The notes beneath the pieces were generated by a model, which was not told the DNA's origin, did no database searches, and worked only from the letters and a program-made list of their open reading frames with translations. The translations under genes were made by a program, and so were the position numbers. Of a DNA stretch of 59,666 nucleotides, positions 2,666-50,247 are shown in pieces. This DNA is from a virus: IMG/VR virus record IMGVR_UViG_3300034152_000748, positions 1-59,666 of that record; one strand, given 5' to 3'. Each line of letters opens with the position of its first letter. Position 1 is the stretch's first letter.

Positions 2666-5362
2666 CTAACCATGCCTATAAATTATTGGGGTTATGACTA
2701 AGTTGCGTCTTTTTCCTCCTATGTACACCACCAAGCTGTCAACGTCCACCCCGTTTCCAATTCCGTACACTTGAAAAGATATGTCTCTGTTGTATCTATA
2801 AACACCTCTGTTGCACAAACCGGGGGAATAGTTGTCTCTGTCAAACCACGGAGCAACACTGCTTATACAATAAAACCTCCAAGAATCCTGCAATAAATTT
2901 TCATTGTCTGACAAATCTCTTGCCATCACGGAAATTTCAATCACGTCCTCATAATTAAAATCATTTATAGGATCATAAGAAACATGATATCCTCCTGAAA
3001 CAGTGGTTGTGGAAAAACTATTTACCCCCCTGTGGTTGACAAACAACTCCAGAGTGCTTAAATCAACCCCAGTGCCTGTGTCTATTATGTCAAACTCTAT
3101 GTTGGCGTCTATTGGAACGTTATACTCTTCCCTAGACGGATCCTCGTTTATTATATATGGTTTATTGTAATCTTGAATGACTCTGAACCAATAATCCAAA
3201 ACTATTAAATTGGGCACGGGGGCAGTGTCGTATATTTCTATGTGAACGTACACCATGGCATTGTGATGAAATGTCCATGTGTTTATCCAGTTAAAGACTA
3301 CCCCATTTATCCCGCCTGCGTCAAAAGTCGTTACATCCCCATCGCTTGTTATGTCAACCCAACCCGAATCACCTGCATAAGAAACCTCTCTTATTTTAAA
3401 AACTAAAGTTGAAGGGTTCAAACTGGTTACAAAAGGCCTAAGCCTTATCCAAATTCGAGTGTTTACTGGATTCTTCTCCGACCAAAACTCGGGTATGGCG
3501 TCAGTGACAAAAGTGAATTGATCCAAATCAACAGTGTCTTTGTTGTTGTCGTCATCCAAATGCCTGCTGATGAGTACCTGATCCACATCCTTTATCCCCT
3601 CATAAGGGCCTTTTTGCTGGATGCGTTGCTCAATTGGGGTGTCGTCAAAACCTTGCATTATGAAAGCGTAAACTTCAGGATAATTTGGATCTTCAAAATC
3701 ATGAAAAAACGGTATAATAATCTGCCTTAACGACTGGTTCACGCTCTGCAATTGCCCAACCGAATCTACGCGTCCAAAATTTTCTACCCCAGACGCCAAA
3801 CAATGCAAATTGCCAACAGCGGAAAATTCCTTATCTTGAAACACCACTCCGGCCACTTCTGAAAATTCAGCGTACGACTGTATGTAAATTCCATCCCAAA
3901 CATACTGACTTCCAGTTTCCAAACTTGATCCATCCGCCCTAACCGTTATTTCATTCATTCCAGTGTAAGAATCTCCTGCTTCAAAATCCACTGTCACAAC
4001 CCCATTGGAGTCAGTCAAACCATATCCAGTGGGTGGATCAAAATCAGAATCTGGATCCCCTGATTTATAAAAATAAACGTTCTTGTTCAACAACCCTACA
4101 TTAAACTGATCCCTAACTATGGCCGTAAGAGTTATGTCGTCGCTGTTTAAAACCAAAGAACGTGGGTGACAATAAACAGTAACGCTCATAGTGTATGGAA
4201 CTACACTGTCTTTTTGATAATTATATGAACCCCACTCATATAAAGTCTTGTTTCCATCATCATCTCTTTTTACTGTTCTATCTTGCAATCTGTACAAAGC
4301 GTTTCCAAGAAAATCAATGTCATAGACAATTATATCAGTAACTTCATCAGGCTGCACATTGTTAAGAGTCTGTGATTTTAGCAAGGAATAATCATGATTA
4401 ACGTCAGAAGTCAACATGTTGTTGCTTCTAACAAACGACAACGCAGAATAAACCTCATTCCATGCAGAAGCGTCCACGCCTTTGTAAACTCCACTGACGT
4501 CATGCTCTATCAACGAACCTGAAGTAGTTGGATCCAACCTAAAAAGAGTTCCATAATCAGATAAATAATCACCTTCTTCTGTAACGTCACTCATGTCTTG
4601 TTCGGGATCGCTAAATAAAAACCAATCCTTAAACACTGTTACAGGATCGCCAGACAAATATTCATAACCCGTTGGGTTGACAAAATCTATCCCAGAAACA
4701 GTTAAATCATTTCCAGCCACCGAGATCACGCAAACATATTCTAAAGCCCCTGGATTATCCACGTCATTGCTTGGGCCCAACATCACAACGTCATGTTGTT
4801 CTATTCCAGAACTGTCAGAAACCGGAACAACCCCAGTTCCGCTGGCAGTGTTACTTGCAAAAGAAGTTTCAATGTTTTCCACAGACAATGAACGAGAGTT
4901 TATAAAATAATCTTCGTCGCTTCTTTTTATGACAGTGTCTTGTAGCTCAAGTCTTTGACTTGATTCGTTTGACTTCCATTTTCTAACTACGTTTGCGTAA
5001 TGGGAATAATCTTGACCAGATCCGCCACAAACAGGACAATTGTCATACTCATCAGTTCCAACAACGACCTCTTCCCCACAATTTTCACAATAAGCGGCCT
5101 CATAATTTTCCAAAGTAAAGAAGGTAAGCCCGTCACTTATTGTGTCAAGACCTGTTGGACCAACGTACACAAGAGATTTTATAGCCTCTATGTTCAATTC
5201 AACGACACCGGTTGGATAAAACGTGTAAGATCTAATCAAAGATCCGCTGTCGTTTTTCACATTCATTAAGGCTTCGGTACCGCTTGTGTCCACGCTGCAA
5301 CATGTTCCTGTTTGCGGACCGATGCAAAAATTAGATTCTTGAACTTCTATGTTTTCATACAT
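2666..5362 (-). CDS. Large tail fibre protein with zinc ribbon, invasin-type Ig domain and C-terminal Ig domains
   Basis: This 898-residue protein shares its N-terminal plan with the two smaller paralogs at 5380-6633 and 6643-7869: an opening Y-E-N-I-x-V motif, an F-x-T-L-E strand, and a segment ending in Y-N-Y-Q. Unlike them it carries a zinc-ribbon insertion, C92-x2-C95 and C109-x2-C112. At about residues 400-490 comes a Big_1 (invasin-like) Ig domain, marked by T-A-I-V-R-D-Q-F and a G-V-V-T-V-D-F strand, followed by an unrecognised segment and at least one SbsA-like Ig domain (around N-V-P-I-D-A-N-I-E-F-D). The start is an ATG about 9 nt after GGGAAGG. Likely an extended side-tail fibre that holds adhesive domains away from the tail. 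Confidence 0.65.
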   Translation of the reverse strand: MYENIEVQESNFCIGPQTGTCCSVDTSGTEALMNVKNDSGSLIRSYTFYPTGVVELNIEAIKSLVYVGPTGLDTISDGLTFFTLENYEAAYCENCGEEVVVGTDEYDNCPVCGGSGQDYSHYANVVRKWKSNESSQRLELQDTVIKRSDEDYFINSRSLSVENIETSFASNTASGTGVVPVSDSSGIEQHDVVMLGPSNDVDNPGALEYVCVISVAGNDLTVSGIDFVNPTGYEYLSGDPVTVFKDWFLFSDPEQDMSDVTEEGDYLSDYGTLFRLDPTTSGSLIEHDVSGVYKGVDASAWNEVYSALSFVRSNNMLTSDVNHDYSLLKSQTLNNVQPDEVTDIIVYDIDFLGNALYRLQDRTVKRDDDGNKTLYEWGSYNYQKDSVVPYTMSVTVYCHPRSLVLNSDDITLTAIVRDQFNVGLLNKNVYFYKSGDPDSDFDPPTGYGLTDSNGVVTVDFEAGDSYTGMNEITVRADGSSLETGSQYVWDGIYIQSYAEFSEVAGVVFQDKEFSAVGNLHCLASGVENFGRVDSVGQLQSVNQSLRQIIIPFFHDFEDPNYPEVYAFIMQGFDDTPIEQRIQQKGPYEGIKDVDQVLISRHLDDDNNKDTVDLDQFTFVTDAIPEFWSEKNPVNTRIWIRLRPFVTSLNPSTLVFKIREVSYAGDSGWVDITSDGDVTTFDAGGINGVVFNWINTWTFHHNAMVYVHIEIYDTAPVPNLIVLDYWFRVIQDYNKPYIINEDPSREEYNVPIDANIEFDIIDTGTGVDLSTLELFVNHRGVNSFSTTTVSGGYHVSYDPINDFNYEDVIEISVMARDLSDNENLLQDSWRFYCISSVAPWFDRDNYSPGLCNRGVYRYNRDISFQVYGIGNGVDVDSLVVYIGGKRRNLVITPIIYRHG

Positions 5363-5379: not shown

Positions 5380-6633
5380 TTAATCATATTGTGTTACAAT
5401 GGCTTCTATTGTAACCGTCGCGGGAGTAATTCCTGCCACATAATAACTTTCTGAGACCCCAGAGGAGTCAGTGTAAACTTCTGTGTACAACATGTAACCA
5501 ACGCTGTCGTTGTCATAAAAACTCACCGGCTTTAACACAGAAGGCTGTGCGTATTGATCGTGCACAGAAGCCGTTATTTTTGATTTATTCATGCCCGTGG
5601 CCGGCAAAATAGTGGGGTAAGCCCCCACAGTTATAGAATCAATGAAGTTTCTTATAGGAGACATTTGATAATTGTAATTCGACCATGAATAGTCAGAACC
5701 ATAATACATGGCTTTTTTCTGCAACCTATAAACGCTCCCACCATAAACAACCAAATCATATATTGGGTAAACGTCAAAACCGTCCGAACTTAAATTGTCC
5801 ATAGTCATCACGCAATAAGTGGAAAAAGGATCTGAGTAAACATTTAAAAATTTTAAATTCGTCGCCTTAACGTAAATCAAAGAGTTTACGGTTCCAACAT
5901 GCGATATCTCAGTAGTCTTGGCAAACGTGCAAGCCAGCACGTTTTTGTATTCACTGTCAGCAAATTTCTCAATGTAATCTCCAGACTCAGAATCAAATTT
6001 ATACAAAGCCCCAGCATCCGCTTCCACGTTGTAATTATTGAACAACCAAATATATTTATTGAAATTAACCTTATCCCCACTTTCATAATCATACGCAGTT
6101 GGGGAAGACAACCCTATGTAATCCCCTCCTATGGAACCGGTGATAGTCACCTGTTCGTAATATCCGTTAGAATTTGGGCCCAAAGTAAAAACAGTTCCTG
6201 AAGTAACAATGTCGCAATCATCATAATAATGATTTACCCTAACGTAATTGCTGCCTCCTGAGACGTCAACGGAGAAAGACGTGTGATAATGTTCCAAAGT
6301 GAAAGCGTCAGAATCGTATCTATGGCCCGAACCGCTGTACGTTAAATTTATTTCATTTTCCAACTCGCAAAAATAATTGTTTATTCTCCATTTTTTTATC
6401 AACAAATCATAGTCAACACGATAACCGTCTTGCAAAGTCCAAAAATAAAAACCGTCGTACTCCAAACTTTTAACTGGCCTGTTGCCCAACGAATCTTTTA
6501 TCACGTACAAAAACACCCGTTCACCGTCAGAGGTTTTTTCTATTAAACAATTGGAAGTCCTGTCAAATTCATAGAAGTAACCATTTGCCACGGTCATGTG
6601 CGGATCTGAAACATTTATGTTTTCATAAGCCAT
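5380..6633 (-). CDS. Tail fibre protein with C-terminal Big_1 domain (paralog 2)
   Basis: This 417-residue protein is a tandem paralog of the next upstream gene (6643-7869). Both share M-x-Y-E-N-I-N at the start, D-S-D-A-F-T-x-E-H-Y-H near residue 110, a T-L-G-P-N-x-N-G strand, L-F-N-N-Y near residue 200, and Y-N-Y-Q shortly before the C-terminal Ig domain. The final 85 residues form an invasin-like Big_1 domain (strand I-T-A-S-V-H-D-Q-Y). Big_1 domains act as rigid spacers or carbohydrate-facing modules in bacterial adhesins and are common in phage fibres. The ATG follows GAGG. Tandem duplication followed by divergence suggests selection for receptor range. Confidence 0.65.
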   Translation of the reverse strand: MAYENINVSDPHMTVANGYFYEFDRTSNCLIEKTSDGERVFLYVIKDSLGNRPVKSLEYDGFYFWTLQDGYRVDYDLLIKKWRINNYFCELENEINLTYSGSGHRYDSDAFTLEHYHTSFSVDVSGGSNYVRVNHYYDDCDIVTSGTVFTLGPNSNGYYEQVTITGSIGGDYIGLSSPTAYDYESGDKVNFNKYIWLFNNYNVEADAGALYKFDSESGDYIEKFADSEYKNVLACTFAKTTEISHVGTVNSLIYVKATNLKFLNVYSDPFSTYCVMTMDNLSSDGFDVYPIYDLVVYGGSVYRLQKKAMYYGSDYSWSNYNYQMSPIRNFIDSITVGAYPTILPATGMNKSKITASVHDQYAQPSVLKPVSFYDNDSVGYMLYTEVYTDSSGVSESYYVAGITPATVTIEAIVTQYD

Positions 6634-6642
6634 TTTTAACCT

Positions 6643-7869
6643 CTATGATTGTTGCACAGTGGCAGTTATTGTCACTTGCCTAGCGTCTGTTCCAGAAGTG
6701 TACACAGTCGTAACTTGTCCTTCAGAATTGGTTCCCGGACTGGAAGGTGACAAACCTCCAACAGGGTCGTCTTCAGTGAAATTCACTGCTCGACCAGACA
6801 CAGGTTGTCTAAACTGATCCCTAACGGTAGCCGTTATAGTAGAAGTGCTAATTCCATTGGCGGCTATAACTCCAGGAGAAGCTGATATGGCAATGGAAGC
6901 AACAAAAGAGTGCAAAGCCCCCAATTGATAATTGTAATTGGTCCATGATTGAGGAGTTCCGTAATAAACAGCTTGGGTTTGCAGTCTATAAACGTTTTCT
7001 CCGTCAATGACCAAATCATAAACAACAATGACCGTGTTGTCGCTTTTCACGTTGTCCATAGCCATGGAACCGTAATATGACATGTCGGATATATTGACAA
7101 ACAACAAGTTGGACGCTTTCACATAACAAAGAGCCTCCACCTCCCCATAGTCGGTGAACACGTCCACCGAATGAAAAGTGGTTGACTTGACGTCCTTGAA
7201 TTCCCCTCCCTCAGTTTTGGACACATATGATCCGTCATAAGCGTCTATTTTGTACAACGCACCTGTTGAACTGTCAACTCCATCGTAATTGTTGAACAAC
7301 CACACGTAGTTGTAGAATTGAAAATCGTCGGCGTCAACGTAGTTGTAAGACGTGCCACTAACCAAAGTAACCCTGTCTGAATAAATGTTTTGAACCTGTC
7401 TGGTTTCAAATTCCCCATTTGTGTTTGGCCCCAAAGTAACTTCCATCCCAGCAGACAGTTGGGAAGTGAAATCATCATACACATACACAACGCTGGTTCC
7501 TGAAGAAGTGGTTCCGCTTATTGTTGAATGATAATGTTCAACCGTAAACGCGTCGGAATCGTACAAGTGCACCCCAGCCTCATACATGGTAAAAGTTTCT
7601 TTCAATTTGCATATGTAATTCTCTATTCGCCACCTGCGTATGTACGCTGTTTCGTCGTCACCTTCTTTCTCCAAAGTCCAAAAATTTACGCCGTCATGTT
7701 CAGTGCTGACTATCTCATGCTCCAACACAGTGTCCAATGGATATGAAAACGCCGTTGTTCCATCATCAGTCTTTTGAAACAACACGTCCCCGATCTCATC
7801 AAACGAATAAAAATAACCGCTGTAAAAAGTAAAATTTGGATTTTCCAAATTTATATTTTCATAAGACAT
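6643..7869 (-). CDS. Tail fibre protein with C-terminal Big_1 domain (paralog 1)
   Basis: This 408-residue protein is the first of three related fibre genes in transcription order. The N-terminal 320 residues are beta-rich with aromatic motifs (F-W-T-L-E, L-F-N-N-Y, Y-N-Y-Q) and contain no transmembrane helix. The C-terminal 85 residues form a Big_1 invasin-like Ig domain, recognisable by T-I-T-A-T-V-R-D-Q-F and then G-Q-V-T-T-V-Y. The ATG at 7869 is preceded by AAGGAGCG. The gap to the next paralog is 9 nt, so the group is surely co-transcribed. Function is inferred from domain content and position. Confidence 0.65.
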   Translation of the reverse strand: MSYENINLENPNFTFYSGYFYSFDEIGDVLFQKTDDGTTAFSYPLDTVLEHEIVSTEHDGVNFWTLEKEGDDETAYIRRWRIENYICKLKETFTMYEAGVHLYDSDAFTVEHYHSTISGTTSSGTSVVYVYDDFTSQLSAGMEVTLGPNTNGEFETRQVQNIYSDRVTLVSGTSYNYVDADDFQFYNYVWLFNNYDGVDSSTGALYKIDAYDGSYVSKTEGGEFKDVKSTTFHSVDVFTDYGEVEALCYVKASNLLFVNISDMSYYGSMAMDNVKSDNTVIVVYDLVIDGENVYRLQTQAVYYGTPQSWTNYNYQLGALHSFVASIAISASPGVIAANGISTSTITATVRDQFRQPVSGRAVNFTEDDPVGGLSPSSPGTNSEGQVTTVYTSGTDARQVTITATVQQS

Positions 7870-8393: not shown

Positions 8394-9347
8394 CTAAGAA
8401 CTAAAATCAAGTTCATTGATCATGTTCATCAAGCCCCATCTAACGACAGAGTCAATGTCAACGTGATAAGAATTTGGCTCAAAATCCGGATCGTTTTCTC
8501 TAATAAGTTGAACTTTGGCCACGTCAGACACGCTGTAATTGTGTTTAATTCCTTGATAACCATTGTTTCCAGAAGTACAAACCTTTATAGTCGTGTCCGT
8601 GGTTCCACTTATCGCTGTAAAATAATCACAGTTTGTTCCGTCAGTTATATAAAAACAACAACCCTCAGAAGCCCCCGAACCGGAATTAACCTTTAAATCT
8701 GAGGTGTTTGCAACATAAGATTCAGTAATCAAAACCTCTTTTAAAGACACTCCTGCCAAAATTTCGCTGGAAACATTTAAATTAAAACCCAAATTCTTAT
8801 AACAAGAATCAACTCCAGAAGAAGTGACGTAAACCGATGATTTGTCATCTCCTGTGTAATACCCTGATATGGAACCAGAAGTTATCACGAACTTACCGTC
8901 TTCAAAATCGACCAAAGCGTTCCTATAAGCAGATTCATAATCAGAATCAACCTCCTGCCAAGAAACGCTGTCAGGCACTGCTCTAATTTTGTTCTGCATG
9001 TCACTGGCTATTGAATCGCCAGTTATGTTGACTCCAGTGGTCAACTCAATGTAATAAACCGTATTGCTGTTGTCTATCTTTATGCCAAGAGTTCTGCTGG
9101 AGTTGTCAATTGTAAATCTCGTACCGGTGAAACCAGAGCTTTTTACCCACCCTGATTTAATGTTTCTAACGTAAACGTCGTCTATCTCAGTGTACAAAAC
9201 GTTGTCAGAATAACCTTCGGTTGAAAAAACAAGAACCCATTTTTCGTCACCTTCAGCGCGCGCAGGCACAATTGTCTGCAAATCCACGCTAACCGTTTTA
9301 GAATTGTTTGGATAATTTTCAATGTCATAAACAGTTACGTCTGGCAT
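8394..9347 (-). CDS. Tail or fibre protein, paralog of the protein at 10409-11386
   Basis: This 317-residue protein aligns along its length with the 325-residue protein beyond the decarboxylase-like pair. Shared marks are Y-P-N-N-S-K-T-V-S-V-D near the N terminus, G-D-E-K/Q, K-I-R-A-(V/I)-P-D near residue 140, A-Y-R-N-A, F-E-D-G-K-F-x-I, L-G-F, and a C terminus M-x-x-x-x-x-D-(F/Y)-S-S. The pattern of a helix followed by G-K-F-x-I-x-S-G and L-G-F is also found in beta domains of other tail-fibre and flagellar hook-type proteins. The start overlaps nothing: the upstream stop lies 2 nt away and GAGGG serves as ribosome binding site. Likely a structural subunit near the fibre attachment point. 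Confidence 0.6.
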   Translation of the reverse strand: MPDVTVYDIENYPNNSKTVSVDLQTIVPARAEGDEKWVLVFSTEGYSDNVLYTEIDDVYVRNIKSGWVKSSGFTGTRFTIDNSSRTLGIKIDNSNTVYYIELTTGVNITGDSIASDMQNKIRAVPDSVSWQEVDSDYESAYRNALVDFEDGKFVITSGSISGYYTGDDKSSVYVTSSGVDSCYKNLGFNLNVSSEILAGVSLKEVLITESYVANTSDLKVNSGSGASEGCCFYITDGTNCDYFTAISGTTDTTIKVCTSGNNGYQGIKHNYSVSDVAKVQLIRENDPDFEPNSYHVDIDSVVRWGLMNMINELDFSS

Positions 9348-9349
9348 GT

Positions 9350-9928
9350 TTACCCTCGGCTTGTTTTTATAAATTCAACAATTCTGTCCTTGTTCTTTTC
9401 TTTAGACAACTCAATTTCATCTAATTTTTTATCCAAACCTTTGTCAACGTTAATCAATATTGCGGTCGGCCCTTTTAGATTGTCTATTATCTTCTTCATG
9501 TTGTCACGAGACTGTTTGTTCTTTAAATAATTTGTAAACTCATAATACACAAACCCCAAACCATACAACAACACTTTCATTGTTTTAACGTTGCTTCCAA
9601 CAGTTGGCAAATCAGTGTCATCTTGATAATACCCACTGTTAAACACAACGTAAAAAACATTTTTACATCCGCTGACAGCAATTTGTACCGCTGAACTAAG
9701 CTCAGAAATAAAACAAAAATCATCAACCAACACAAACACCCTGTTTTCAACGGCTACAGCCAACCCTAAAGCAGTTGAAGCCGCCAAATCCTCAGAATCA
9801 ATCATATAAAAATAACCGTCTCGATCATATTTATATGATTCCTTGCATATTCCTTTGCCTGCCAACACCACTACGTCATCGTCATTTAAACAATCTAAAA
9901 AATGTTCTATGGCTTTGTACCTTTTCAT
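9350..9928 (-). CDS. Thiamine-diphosphate decarboxylase-like protein, C-terminal (pyrophosphate-binding) half
   Basis: This 192-residue protein resembles the beta subunit of sulfopyruvate decarboxylase (ComE) or the C-terminal half of phosphonopyruvate decarboxylase. Visible marks are a F-Y-M strand near residue 40 followed by A-A-S-T-A-L-G-L-A-V-A, a V-F-V-L-V-D-D-F segment at the position of the ThDP/Mg motif G-D-G, and V-F-N-S-G near residue 95 where the family has N-N/D-N-G, followed by L-P-T. The middle Asp of G-D-G (D70) is kept, but both glycines and the usual Asn are changed, so cofactor binding may be weak or lost. Its ATG overlaps the stop of the alpha-like gene (ATGA), so the two halves are translationally coupled. 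Family assignment comes from motif memory and was not searched. Confidence 0.6.
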   Translation of the reverse strand: MKRYKAIEHFLDCLNDDDVVVLAGKGICKESYKYDRDGYFYMIDSEDLAASTALGLAVAVENRVFVLVDDFCFISELSSAVQIAVSGCKNVFYVVFNSGYYQDDTDLPTVGSNVKTMKVLLYGLGFVYYEFTNYLKNKQSRDNMKKIIDNLKGPTAILINVDKGLDKKLDEIELSKEKNKDRIVEFIKTSRG

Positions 9929-10374
9929 TGATTAAAAAACCCTCTGTTCACAACACAGACAGCTGTGGTAGATTCTTTCTCTATTTTATCAACAAGGCTC
10001 TTAAAATCTTTTCTTAAATTTTTACTAAAATACCTATAAAAAACATTGTACAAAGACAACAACTCTTCTAAGTTCTCTGTCTCGTTGTAAACTATAAATA
10101 AAATAGGTATTTTATATTTATTGTTAAATGACGACACGTTCTCCATGATTTTCGCAACTCTGCTAGAACTAATTAAAACCGCGCCTTTAACCCCAGCCAA
10201 TTTAGCCCCACTAATTATACCCGTCGCTATGTTCTCATTGGACGCAGGAATGTAATGAAGAAAATCAGACCTCATAGTGTCGTACAGATTCTTAAACCCA
10301 ACGCACTGCACTCCAGAGAACAATCTATATCCAAACTCCTCACATAAACAATTCCAAAACTCCTTTGCCTTCAT
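9925..10374 (-). CDS. Thiamine-diphosphate decarboxylase-like protein, N-terminal (pyrimidine-binding) half
   Basis: This 149-residue protein resembles the alpha subunit of sulfopyruvate decarboxylase (ComD) or the N-terminal half of phosphonopyruvate decarboxylase. It shows F-S-G-V near residue 20, I-P-A-S-N-E-N-I-A then G-A-K-L-A-G, and K-I-P-I-L-F-I-V near residue 90. E47 lies where ThDP enzymes carry the glutamate that activates the aminopyrimidine ring. The family loop Q-N-S-G is replaced by a serine-rich stretch (S68-S70). The length fits a stand-alone alpha subunit. The gene is AT-richer than its neighbours (27% GC at 10021-10080), which suggests transfer. With the beta-like gene it forms a two-subunit unit between paralogous tail genes. 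The substrate is unknown. Confidence 0.65.
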   Translation of the reverse strand: MKAKEFWNCLCEEFGYRLFSGVQCVGFKNLYDTMRSDFLHYIPASNENIATGIISGAKLAGVKGAVLISSSRVAKIMENVSSFNNKYKIPILFIVYNETENLEELLSLYNVFYRYFSKNLRKDFKSLVDKIEKESTTAVCVVNRGFFNQ

Positions 10375-10408: not shown

Positions 10409-11386
10409 TTAAGATGAATAATCTATTTGATTAGACGTTGTTTTAATTCCCCACCTAATTATTGAATCCATGTCGTTGTAATGAGAACGAGGTTCTCCTT
10501 CAGGATCTTGTTCCCTTAAAATTTGAATTTTAGTGCCTGAATCAGTGGTGTAATTATACGTAATTCCACCTTGTCCTATTGTAGAAACAACAACGCTTGT
10601 GTCAGTGGTGCCAGCCAAAGCGGCAAAATACTCTGTATGATTGCGGTCTGTGATCAACAAACAATCACCAGCAGTAACGCCCGTGCCGGCGCTGATGGAA
10701 AGAGGACTCGTGTTATTGATATAATTACTTGTGATATAAGCCTCTTTAACCGAAATACCAGCCAGCTCCTCACTGGTTGTGGAAACATCAAAACCCAACA
10801 TAGTCGTACAATCGTTGTTGTCTACAGCAGCAACCATTACGGAAGATCTGTTTGCTCCCGTGAAAGCGCTTTTAAGACTTCCTGAAACAATCTTAAATTT
10901 ACCGTCTTCAAAATAAACAGAAGCGTTTCTATAAGCTTTTATTAAAGAATCATCCGCAGAATCCCAATAATCTCCGTCAGGAATTGCCCTAATCTTTGTT
11001 TCCATGTCCGCGGCAATAACGTCACCGGACATGGCGGTACCGTTTTCGTGATTAAGTAGAATGGAATAATACCCCAACCCATCATAACCACTCACTGTAG
11101 CGTCCATTTTGACTTTCATTCTGCAATGAGTTGAATCCAAATTAAATTTCCCACCCGTGCCGGCAAAACCTGAACTTTTACACCAACCACCGTCAGTTCC
11201 CGTTATGTACAACCTGGGTATTGCAGTACGACTTGTATTGTTGCTGTACGCAGTGGTTGACACTTCTACTATAAGCTGCTCGTCACCTTCATAACCAATC
11301 GGCACTAAAGAATCAACGTCAACAGAAACGTTTTTAGTAGTGCCTGGATAGTTATCCAAGTCTTGAGTAACAACTGTTAATGCCAT
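10409..11386 (-). CDS. Tail or fibre protein, paralog of the protein at 8394-9347
   Basis: I start this gene at the ATG at 11386, directly after GAGGAGG. A longer frame upstream has no ribosome binding site. It has 325 residues. Paralogy with the 317-residue protein is seen in N-Y-P-G-T-T-K-N-V-S-V-D, K-I-R-A-I-P-D, A-Y-R-N-A, F-E-D-G-K-F-K-I, L-G-F, and the C-terminal D-Y-S-S. The two paralogs flank the decarboxylase-like pair, as though that pair had been inserted between duplicated tail genes. Mostly beta structure is expected, and no catalytic motif was seen. Confidence 0.6.
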   Translation of the reverse strand: MALTVVTQDLDNYPGTTKNVSVDVDSLVPIGYEGDEQLIVEVSTTAYSNNTSRTAIPRLYITGTDGGWCKSSGFAGTGGKFNLDSTHCRMKVKMDATVSGYDGLGYYSILLNHENGTAMSGDVIAADMETKIRAIPDGDYWDSADDSLIKAYRNASVYFEDGKFKIVSGSLKSAFTGANRSSVMVAAVDNNDCTTMLGFDVSTTSEELAGISVKEAYITSNYINNTSPLSISAGTGVTAGDCLLITDRNHTEYFAALAGTTDTSVVVSTIGQGGITYNYTTDSGTKIQILREQDPEGEPRSHYNDMDSIIRWGIKTTSNQIDYSS

Positions 11387-11406
11387 TTTCGTATCCTCCT
11401 CTATTA

Positions 11407-11772
11407 TTAATGGTAAAAATACCTTTCTCCATAAGTAACATAATAATGACAATTGTCATAGGTGCATTCAAAACCCCAATTGCCTCTATTAGTGGTCTTC
11501 ATATAACATGTTTTTCCATCAGGATCGGTGTGATCGATCCTGACCACGCTGGGAGGGAACGGATCTTCAGGATCTATTCCCAACAAAAGCTTGGCTCTGA
11601 TTTCGGGACATTGAGTGGAATAAGGACACGGATGCCAACAATGTCCTTTATGCTGATCTTTTTTATGTTGAGGAAGCTGGCCATAGTGTTCTGTGCCGTA
11701 TATCCTTCTCCATTTTTGTTGCGGAGTTTCCCCAACAATGCTTCTATCACATCTATGCTCGCAATCACCCAT
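11407..11772 (-). CDS. Cys/His-rich protein, possible metal-binding tail-tip component
   Basis: This 121-residue protein has eight cysteines (C4, C8, C45, C49, C55, C89, C103, C108) and nine histidines, including a dense cluster H36, H41, H44, C45, H47, C49. That density strongly suggests a bound metal or Fe-S cluster. Metal-centred tips are known in phages (iron in the T4-type spike tip, an Fe-S cluster in lambda gpL), and this gene lies in the tail-tip region, so a tip or plug role is a reasonable but untested idea. I do not recognise the family. The ATG follows GGGGGATG. Confidence 0.5.
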   Translation of the reverse strand: MGDCEHRCDRSIVGETPQQKWRRIYGTEHYGQLPQHKKDQHKGHCWHPCPYSTQCPEIRAKLLLGIDPEDPFPPSVVRIDHTDPDGKTCYMKTTNRGNWGFECTYDNCHYYVTYGERYFYH

Positions 11773-20100: not shown

Positions 20101-23100
20101 AACCCTCTATCATAGCCTGCCTTTGCACTTCTTCAAAAGTAGGCAACGGCTTCATAGCGCTTCTATAAAGCTCCTCATAAGAAGGCCCTTCTTTCAATAA
20201 TTTGCCATACAAAGGACGTGGCTGCTTCAAATATTCTTCCGTGGCTTCGTCATATATTTCATCATACACATTCTTTTTGGGACTTCGTTTAAAATATTTT
20301 CCAGCTTTCTTTGCCAAACTAAAACCCTTAGAACCAACACCAAGAGAAGTTCCAATCAAAGACAGTGAAAGTCTGTTCGCTATTCCCTCATCAACACTGC
20401 CAGTCTCATCATGCACTCCATACGTAAGCGCATCTTCAATTGGACCAATTGGGGTTATAGATTTGATCGCGCCATAAAGTCCAAACAAATTTGGGCTGCC
20501 AATAAGAGCTTTTTCCGCGCTTGACCCCTCTTTAGCCTGTCTGTTCCTTATTTGCTTTGTCCTTATGAACTTCTCAATGTTTTTCCATGCCTCTCTTTCT
20601 TTGTCAACCGCGCCTCCTTCTCCAAAATTAGGAAAAAGGCTGCCTATAAACCCACCTTCTTGATATCTAGGAGCCGCATAAAAGTTTTTACTAAGCAGTC
20701 CAAATATATTTTTATATAAATCAGAGTCCTTTTGAATGTCCAAAGAGTCTAGAAAATCAGGTAAATTTGAAATATTAATGCTCTTTTTACCAATTAACTT
20801 AGAAAAATATGAAGGTTTACCGGCTTTAGCCCCAGAAACTGATTTGTCAATAAATTTTTGTAATAAACCAGACCATGCTTGAACATCTTCATAATCTAAA
20901 GTACCTGACGGGTGTCTAAATTCTAATGTACCGTGCTTTATTATAGACTTAGCATTAACTTTTTTATATCTATCCCCCAATGTATAATCTACTTCATCCA
21001 AAATAAGTCCCGAAAGCGATCTTACTTCCTTCTTCTTCTTCACATCTCTCATACTTTTAGCATATTTATTTAAATTTCCTCTTCTTTCTTTGGTTACAAG
21101 TAAATCAAATATATCTTCAGCTTTTCCATAATTCTTAACAACGTTGATTAGTTGTTTTTCGGATAAATCGTCTATACCAAAATGCATATGCATACCGGTT
21201 GAAAAATTAGTCCGTGCACCCAATTTTTTCATGAGTTCTACAAATTTAAGAGAAGGAGACAATTCCTCTTCGTTAAAAAAAGGACCAAGCTTTACCTCAA
21301 AAGGCTTTTGATCAATATAATCTGGTTGTATAGACATGTCAGTCGTAACACTGCCCCGTGCCTTCTTCTTTTTCATTAAATGAGTCAACATTTCTTCCAG
21401 CCCTAAAGATCTAAATTTCTTAGGATCATATCCCCGTGGCCACCCGCCTGGCAAGGATTTAGCATTAATTGTTCGTGACTTTTGGAGCCTGATCCAAGCC
21501 AAGTCTGGATCGGCAAAACCCTCCAATTCAACCCCTAAAGATCTAAATTTCTTAGGATCATATGTTTTTGGTCGTAAAACAGCATGTAATAAATAACCAT
21601 ACTCCTGCAAGTACTGAGAATCTACCACACTATATGCATCATATATATTATCTTCTCCGTATAAGTCACGCAAAAACTTCAAATGCGCTTCCTTCTCACT
21701 CTCTGTAGCCTTCTTTTTAGGTTTCTTTTTATATATTTTTAGAATATTTTTAAGTTCATTAGTAGGACGGTTTTTTGCAAAAACAGCTCCGGGAGTTAAC
21801 GTAGATAAAAGACCTGCAGTAATATTAGTACCTCCAGTAGCTAATTCTTCTTTTAACGAGCCCAAAACCCCTTCCCCTATATTCTTAATGTCATCTAAAT
21901 CTAAATCCCTTAGTACACTAGATACCCCAGCTAACGTCTGCTTAGCCGTTTCACCTAACTTTCCTTTTGCCTGCAAATCCGATAATTTTTCTATCATGCT
22001 AAGAGCGTCAACGGGATATTTAATCATCCTCAATCCTATATCAGGAATTGAAGTGGCTCCCATAGCCCAAGTTCCGACAGCTGATTTTAGTGCCTGTTTT
22101 GACCTGTCCAAAATTCCTTTTGGAGGATCTCCTGACCATATCCAGTCGGCTATGCCAAGTCTTTTTTTCTTCCAAAAGTCAGCAGACTCTCCTAAAACAG
22201 AAGAAACCCTACCAAACACACCGCCTTCTCGAAATCCAGGAACAGTTCCTCTCTCATTCATATAATCAAGAGCGTCGTATCCAATTTTCTTCGCAGAACT
22301 TGCTTTAATTATGTATTCTTCAGGACTGATTCTTGCTAATATTCTATCGTCTCTTGGACCACCTGGACCGTACACTCTTCCACCGCTGTTTTTACCAGTC
22401 CAATCTCTCCATCCGCCAGGTTTAGGATTAGAAAACCAATCCCAAGCTTTCTCTACTGTACCTCTGGTATTAGCCTCAATTTTTTCCAACACTTTAGTTT
22501 GATTTGCCAACTCCTGAGGAACGGTTTTTTCAGCAAAAGACAATTTTTCCATAAGCTCGGCTTTATTTTCTTTGTTAACTGACAACAAACTGTTCAACAA
22601 CTTTTTCGCTTCTTGCTCCGCCGCGTCCAAAGCCTTAGCGGAATAAAAATCCGATCCAGAACTTTCCAAAACTCTTTCTCTTTCCTGTTTCAACTCTCTT
22701 TCTTCCAAACTGCCCTTTTCAGCAGAGGCCAACCTGGTGTCTATCTCTCTCAATCTTTCGCTCTGAGAAACAGTTTCACCAAAACTTTTTAATCCCCTGT
22801 CATAACTGGCTATAATTTGTGACAACCCTTCGTGTATTTGTTTTAACTCTATTCTTTCTTCTCTGCCAGTACCTTTTCCTAAAACCACTTCTTTTACACC
22901 AGCCCCCATTTGTTCTTCAATGTCAGCTTGCGCAGAAACAAACCTGGCTATGGTTTGTTCATAACCAGATCTTTTTTGTTCCATGTCCCTATTTTCTCTT
23001 TGTTGATAATACGCTTGCTCTTCCCGTCTTTGCAATTCAGGCAAAAATCTAAGTTTTTGTTCTGTCCTAAAATATTCTTCTGGACTAAGATTTCCAAACT

Positions 23101-48639: not shown

Positions 48640-50247
48640 TTATAAAGAGGTTAGTTTATTGTTTGTCTTGTCAAATTTCGCGTTTCCACAGTCCCAAATT
48701 CTTGACCAACCCTGGGACTTTTTAATTCCCCACTCATCCAAACAAACCGAACCGTCTTCTTTTTTTCTAAAATTAAGCCAGCGAACCCTTTTTTGGTTCT
48801 TGACGTACCAACAATTCGGTCCGGTAAAACCAACTAACAAAAAATTCAACTTGTCGTGTTCGTCTCCTGACGACCATCGTCTGTCAACGTAACTTCGCAC
48901 GCGCCTCCATTTGTAATTGTTTTCAAAATGTTTCAACAACTTGTAAGCTCCTCCAACAACCATGAAATTTGTTTTTGAACAAAACCTGTGGAGCTTCCAA
49001 TCAAGCTTTCTATCAAAATCCGTCTCATTTTCCATGGTCTGTTTTGAAAAAGTCATTGCGCTGACCAACTCATTTTCATGGAACAAACCGATTTTTACGG
49101 CGGCGTTGATTCCATATCCTTGCAAATGATTGTCGTTGCAAAACTTTTCAGCAACTCCGTCAGTTATTTCCTCTACATGACACTTTTCTGCGAGCACTTT
49201 CTCGCCTTTTTCCACGTTCAACAATTTCCTCAATCTTGATTTGACCACTTTTTTGTTGAAAACCCATTCGTCTTCAAACACGGTTATCAATCTGTACCCA
49301 ACTGAATTACACAAATTCAATTTGTCCAGGTGATATGTTTTGTTTTTGCCCGCCCGATCCGAATGCCAATACAACCCACAATATTCTATTGCAAGATTTG
49401 ACTCTGGAATCACAACGTCAAGCTCGTATGGTTTTATCAAATTCCTGTCACGCTCTATAATCTCACGTCCACAATCCAGTTTTAAAAATTCTATGATCTC
49501 TCTCTCCTGACAAGAAGAACCCCACTCAGTGCATTCAACGCAACGAGAATTGTTGTTGCTCCAATTGTTCCAAGTAACAAAACAGTCGTGTCCGTTTGGA
49601 CAAACCGCATGCAGTTTTTGATTGTGATTGGAGTATTCTGAAGACATTAATGAATAACCTTCTTTGGACAATTCCTTTCCAATGAATTCAATGTCTTTCT
49701 TCATGTTTGGGGAGCACTCTGGACATCTGTGCCCTGCGTTCCAATTTCTCCAACTAACGCTGTGTTCGTGTCCATTAGGACAAACGTAATTCAATTTTTT
49801 GGAACTGTTGACATACCGTCTGTCCAACAACTCATAACCCTCTTTCGCGAAAGAATTTTTAACTGAATCCAAATCAATGACTGGCTTTCCGGCACAATAT
49901 GGGCATCCGTGCCCTCTTTTAAAATGATCCCATCGTATGGAGTGTTTATGCCCATTTGGACAAAGGTAAACCAACTTCTTCCTGTTTTTGTAATTTTTTG
50001 ACAATAATTTATAGCCGCGCTTTGAAAACTCTCTCTCAATAAAAACAATGTCGAGCCTGTTCTTTCCAGATTCGCACAAACATCTTCTTCCAGCCATCCA
50101 TTTGTCAAAACTAATTTTGCATTCATGTCCATTTGGACAAATTAAAGTCAACTTAGCTCGAGCGTTACAGTATTCTTTGTCGATTAAAACGTAACCTTCG
50201 TCTTCTATGTACTTCCTCACATCTTCTACCGTACGTCTTCTGCCCAT
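48640..50247 (-). CDS. Free-standing homing endonuclease, zinc repeats plus Vsr-like (EDxHD) nuclease
   Basis: This 535-residue protein starts with four repeats, each carrying C-P-N-G-H-(E/K/D) and ending in a second cysteine pair (C-P-Y-C, C-P-E-C and similar), consistent with treble-clef or zinc-ribbon DNA-binding units. At about residues 270-320 comes the nuclease segment: Y-E-L-D-V-V-I-P, A-I-E-Y-C-G-L-Y-W-H-S, Y-H-L-D-K-L-N-L-C, I-T-V-F-E-D-E-W. This is the pattern of Vsr-related phage homing endonucleases (I-Bth0305I type). The C-terminal third has R-W-S-S-G-D and F-T-G-P-N-C-W-Y-V, as usual for these proteins. It lies just before the intron-bearing gene and may help mobilise the introns. 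Confidence 0.8.
   Translation of the reverse strand: MGRRRTVEDVRKYIEDEGYVLIDKEYCNARAKLTLICPNGHECKISFDKWMAGRRCLCESGKNRLDIVFIEREFSKRGYKLLSKNYKNRKKLVYLCPNGHKHSIRWDHFKRGHGCPYCAGKPVIDLDSVKNSFAKEGYELLDRRYVNSSKKLNYVCPNGHEHSVSWRNWNAGHRCPECSPNMKKDIEFIGKELSKEGYSLMSSEYSNHNQKLHAVCPNGHDCFVTWNNWSNNNSRCVECTEWGSSCQEREIIEFLKLDCGREIIERDRNLIKPYELDVVIPESNLAIEYCGLYWHSDRAGKNKTYHLDKLNLCNSVGYRLITVFEDEWVFNKKVVKSRLRKLLNVEKGEKVLAEKCHVEEITDGVAEKFCNDNHLQGYGINAAVKIGLFHENELVSAMTFSKQTMENETDFDRKLDWKLHRFCSKTNFMVVGGAYKLLKHFENNYKWRRVRSYVDRRWSSGDEHDKLNFLLVGFTGPNCWYVKNQKRVRWLNFRKKEDGSVCLDEWGIKKSQGWSRIWDCGNAKFDKTNNKLTSL

Follow-up and report, generated by a model that had tools for sequence, protein, structure and literature searches.

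The closest described system to the gene pair considered here, by both sequence and predicted fold, is RhiEF, a phosphonopyruvate decarboxylase from Bacillus subtilis ATCC 6633 (PDB 9IZ3 and 9IZ4; PMC12141560). In RhiEF, the PYR domain (RhiE) and the PP domain (RhiF) are separate subunits encoded by adjacent genes, and these lie in a phosphonate biosynthesis cluster. Sulfopyruvate decarboxylase (ComDE) is likewise made up of two small subunits. Small ThDP folds are also encoded by phages, as in the transketolase-like proteins of the Campylobacter phages IBB35 and CP21 (BFVD H6SUI2 and I7KLL3, respectively), though by name these belong to another branch of the ThDP enzymes and, in the fold search of the beta model through which they were found, they were weaker matches (E values of 1e-4 and 5e-3). 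Literature searches on phage sulfopyruvate decarboxylase, on ThDP in tails and on pseudoenzymes in phage tails or baseplates yielded nothing on the system described below. We know of no earlier case of a ThDP-enzyme fold in virions, and none was found in the literature searched. A report on large aquatic phages identified no tape measure gene and makes no mention of a decarboxylase or of thiamine (PMC12619734); hence, those phages look like another lineage.

The window analysed here is the whole of a 59,666 base stretch from an IMG/VR virus record, and nearly all of its genes are carried on the minus strand. An earlier note made from this DNA had described two coupled genes, lying in AT-rich DNA between paralogous tail genes, as matches to the alpha and beta halves of decarboxylases for sulfopyruvate or phosphonopyruvate. 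The pair was found as described, on the minus strand (the strand had not been given), and the genes that flank it are indeed paralogues. The features of this region, in order of transcription, are:

17114-42955, minus strand, tape measure protein of 8,613 aa, preceding the tail module in transcription (phrog_4211, 5.3e-88; PF10145, 2.8e-30)
10409-11452, minus strand, g325, a flanking tail-module gene of 347 aa (longest frame), 42 % identical to 8394-9347 and conserved in all module-bearing relatives
9925-10374, minus strand, alpha, a PYR-domain subunit of 149 aa, RhiE/ComD-like
9925-9928, minus strand, ATGA, the 4 nt overlap of the alpha stop and the beta start
9350-9928, minus strand, beta, a PP-domain subunit of 192 aa, RhiF/ComE-like
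8394-9347, minus strand, second copy of g325, a flanking tail-module gene of 317 aa

The GC content of the pair is 35.1 %, lower than the 40.6 % of the window. The ATGA overlap recurs in nine of the ten viruses known to carry the pair and is likely to couple translation of the two halves.

In profile searches, alpha matched TIGR03845 (sulfopyruvate decarboxylase subunit alpha; 1.1e-11) and the N-terminal part of TIGR03297 (phosphonopyruvate decarboxylase; 1.3e-9), and beta matched TIGR03846 (the beta subunit; 3.9e-15) over nearly its full length, along with the C-terminal portion of TIGR03297 (3.5e-13). The ComDE profiles were the best NCBIfam matches for both halves. However, the curated cut-offs were not reached, the scores being 45 bits against 148 for TIGR03845, 56 against 221.5 for TIGR03846 and 49 against 312.5 for TIGR03297, and the viral relatives of the pair that were scanned likewise fall below them. 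The pair falls outside what defines a sulfopyruvate or a phosphonopyruvate decarboxylase. Neither half had a significant match in Pfam or PHROGs. When six-sequence viral alignments were used, RhiEF was the top PDB sequence match for alpha (E 1.2e-12) and beta (E 7.9e-11) alike.

Fold predictions agree with the profiles. AlphaFold2 models of alpha and beta, built from input alignments of four sequences each (pLDDT 77-79, pTM 0.78-0.81), had RhiE and RhiF, respectively, as their top Foldseek matches. Using VIA-align, the alpha model superimposed on RhiE (9iz3_C) with Z 21.6 and rmsd 1.8 over 142 residues and the beta model on RhiF (9iz3_B) with Z 21.3 and rmsd 2.1 over 170 residues, the runners-up being the AzcBC decarboxylase (Z ~18) and other ThDP enzymes (Z ~16-18). 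The predicted models place the PYR and PP domain folds on two subunits, and the assignment to the two halves of this decarboxylase group stands.

Relatives came from scans of viral contigs, first with the pair as query and afterwards with the neighbouring tail proteins. Nine further uncultivated phages (L002, L003, L005, L008, L033, L053, L057, L059 and L069) carry the pair, which is absent from the records, themselves fragments, of 13 other viruses that bear the module. Elsewhere in these 13 incomplete records a scan without its own positive control gave no match to beta; a profile of the same family did recover the pair in five pair-bearing records. A maximum likelihood tree of eight neighbouring proteins from all 23 viruses (2,911 columns) placed the ten pair-bearing viruses in one clade (support 99/98), within which the window branches first and L003 second. 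Every known member of this clade retains both halves, and no loss is seen inside it. In a second tree, built from the viral pairs together with eight cellular enzymes from plasmids, the viral pair forms one group (100/100) with L003 adjoining the root, though a closer cellular relative may exist as the cellular sample is small. The pair was acquired once, long ago, and has since kept its fold, coupling and place as its catalytic site eroded; the two trees reject a recent decay in the window alone. A tblastn search of 50,697 phage records with the pair and with three of the tail proteins revealed no relatives, and none was found on scanning GTDB genomes with the beta alignment and the 898-aa tail protein, using short peptide patterns that can miss relatives. 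A methanogen host, as suggested by the similarity to ComDE, found no support.

The active-site residues were compared by aligning the ten viral pairs with eight cellular enzymes. The positions concerned in the window are:

10234-10236, minus strand, alpha E47, aligned with the invariant Glu of the cellular enzymes; 8/10 viruses keep it
10150-10170, minus strand, alpha residues 69-75, SSSRVAK at the place of QNSGLGN; motif absent in 10/10 viruses
10060-10083, minus strand, alpha residues 98-105, approximate place of the missing segment RG..(E)PQ..MG..T; deleted in 10/10 viruses
9716-9724, minus strand, beta residues 69-71, D-D-F replacing the Mg-ThDP motif G-D-G
9635-9643, minus strand, beta residues 96-98, F-N-S replacing L-D-N

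The Glu at the E47 position of PYR domains activates ThDP. Its retention in alpha and the replacement of GDG by DDF in beta had both been pointed out before and are borne out by the alignment; the two viruses without the Glu have Ala (L008) or Ile (L053). The losses in the window go beyond these: alpha is also missing QNSGLGN and the segment RG..PQ..MG..T, and beta is missing GSMG, the Asn of LDN and the STGGQ loop, with which residues 102-112, the least confident part of the beta model, align. The lost alpha motif and segment are conserved in all eight cellular enzymes and, from this conservation and general knowledge of ThDP enzymes, we take them to be substrate or cofactor contacts. Since QNSGLGN is found in none of the ten viral alphas and the segment is deleted in all of them, both losses are likely to be ancestral. 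Unlike RhiEF, which has a full ThDP and substrate site, the viral pair lacks this motif and segment and, in the window, GDG..DN; it differs from ComDE by the same absences.

The cofactor site in beta is more varied. At the GDG position, the betas read DDF (window), SDC (L002), GDG (L003), NDG (L005), EDS (L008), GEG (L033 and L059), DDA (L053), EDI (L057) and EDQ (L069), the middle residue being Asp in eight and Glu in two, so that the residue at the metal position is acidic in all ten. LDN is retained only in L003, L033 and L059, and the full GDG..DN site is present in a single beta (L003) and absent from the other nine. None retains GSMG, for which L033 has GSVG. If GDG is ancestral, the tree would require several separate losses of it, and an ancestor that already lacked the alpha motif and segment, with the cofactor site then wearing away independently, would fit the pattern. 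Columns of the fold core were kept: G56 and G61 in alpha and R3, Y41, G55, A57 and G153 in beta are present in 10/10, several further fold-core columns in 9/10, and the core Gly, Tyr and Ala columns in 9-10 of the ten.

While RhiEF belongs to a phosphonate biosynthesis cluster, the viral pair is found among tail genes. It lies inside the same tail module in all ten viruses, with the tape measure gene shown upstream in the window. Tail-tip and baseplate genes usually follow the tape measure gene in phages, and the pair, being downstream of it, is therefore in the region usual for such genes, though PHROGs gave no match of known tail function for those neighbours that were checked. In the nine other viruses with the pair the genes run g325 - g168 - alpha - beta - g406 - g898, and in the window they run g325, alpha-beta, the g325 paralogue, g168, two g406 paralogues (42 % identical) and g898. 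As 13 relatives have the module without it, the pair is not needed for the tail type as such, and among these records, which are fragments, it is not a core part common to all module-bearing viruses; it is an addition of one clade to the tail module. Two or more g406 genes precede g898 in the relatives that lack the pair and one in the nine other pair-bearing viruses, the window being the exception with two (5380-7869, minus strand) plus the pair. This change in g406 number counts as one evolutionary event, whose connection with the pair is uncertain. In several pair-lacking relatives, homing-endonuclease/HNH-like genes lie between tail genes of the same module (L046, 4087-5012; L050, 8966-9469; L052, 8537-9463; L061, 7578-8477), and a hidden diverged pair in the gap between the same tail genes of L046, L050 and L052 was discounted, as the gap holds these genes.

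Taken as a whole, the evidence leans towards the pair being a non-catalytic heteromer that performs tail-related work, most likely as a component of the tail tip or baseplate or as an assembly factor. From the pattern of losses and the context we infer that the two halves work together without catalysis. A split ThDP decarboxylase of the RhiEF/ComDE type would have been captured once, by the ancestor of the clade, into the tail module; the alpha-side motif and segment would have gone early, followed by erosion of the Mg-ThDP site in several lineages independently, under continued constraint on the fold core, and both halves would still be expressed from the coupled genes, forming a non-catalytic heteromer at or for the tail tip. 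A more specific form, in which the pair is a stoichiometric tail-tip part of the virion, with the decarboxylase fold turned structural and L003 recording an intermediate state, is one we put forward tentatively and would not yet bet on. Lying in a tail operon does not prove that a protein is in the virion, and the pair is a candidate virion part. Of the earlier statements, the homology, the tail context and the reading as a repurposed or altered enzyme are well borne out. Of the two roles then proposed, the losses best match the one in which an enzyme fold has become a non-enzymatic part, which is unproven; an enzyme acting on a metabolite is not supported for this virus.

Several observations count against the favoured tail-related heteromer. 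L003 retains GDG and LDN, 13 relatives have this tail module without the pair, and a plain scaffold would need neither the acidic residue that every beta has at the metal position nor E47, which eight of ten alphas keep. Judged from the alignments, the acidic residue leaves room for the binding of a ligand, and together with E47 it fits a remaining ligand site in a complex that is expressed late and acts without catalysis inside the host, outside any virion, for instance through capture of a metabolite or cofactor, or as a partner that blocks a host ThDP enzyme. The addition of the pair to a module that exists without it is also in keeping with such an intracellular complex, which is the main alternative, but we consider it unlikely, because the pair lies within the tail module in all ten viruses, tightly coupled to tail genes, and no tie to any host target was seen.

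That the pair remains, in some lineages at least, an active ThDP-dependent enzyme of altered chemistry appears improbable. L003, which keeps GDG, LDN and E47, is the least unlikely lineage for this; L033 and L059 combine GEG with LDN and E47, and L005 retains AGGQPT. In the window, however, the corresponding residues are DDF, FNS and DDTDL, neither QNSGLGN nor the RG..PQ..MG..T segment is present in any of the ten alphas, and L008 and L053 are without the ThDP-activating Glu yet retain the pair. A PEP mutase gene is absent from the ten pair-bearing records, which are incomplete. The earlier suggestion of an enzyme for a phosphonate, sulfonate or keto acid is unsupported in this virus, which has lost the alpha motif, the segment and the Mg-ThDP site, and these sequences lend no support to a working decarboxylase of sulfopyruvate or phosphonopyruvate.

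Neutral decay of a passenger gene pair, which could draw on the ongoing loss of active-site residues and on the homing-endonuclease-like genes at nearby module junctions in relatives (a sign that the region accepts passengers), is very improbable and already largely refuted by retention, constraint and open frames, as ten lineages diverged to ~40 % identity all have open, coupled alpha and beta frames, neither half has been lost in the clade, the fold-core columns are nearly invariant, and dN/dS (Nei-Gojobori) falls mostly within 0.24-0.45, apart from a single 0.73; these figures are rough, since synonymous sites are close to saturation or beyond it. The pair is no remnant of a pseudogene. Its mean pairwise identity is 39-40 %, compared with 42-58 % for the neighbouring proteins.

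If the two proteins are in the tail, the ThDP-enzyme fold would join the known folds of virion proteins. The pair offers a case, in a tail gene cluster, of a stepwise loss of chemistry in which fold and partnership were retained and intermediates are found in living lineages. It also calls for caution, as profile matches alone are insufficient to annotate such genes as auxiliary metabolic genes for sulfonates or phosphonates.

Elsewhere in the window, 48640-50247 (minus strand) encodes an HNH/homing endonuclease-like protein (phrog_559, 2.7e-106) with CapR-like repeats (PF21817, 1.7e-14), and the 898-aa tail-module protein at 2666-5362 (minus strand) has a weak match to Big_1 (bacterial Ig-like) at residues 406-480. 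The tape measure protein includes an Amidoligase_2 domain (PF12224, 5.2e-16) at approximately residues 7207-7368 (window ~20852-21337, minus strand), and a gene of 7,445 aa occupies the tape measure position in G001. By the tape measure rule, each residue accounts for 0.15 nm of tail, and the 8,613 aa protein of the window would predict a tail of ~1.3 micrometres. The tail of phage P74-26, described as the longest known, is nearly 1 micrometre (PMC10034513).
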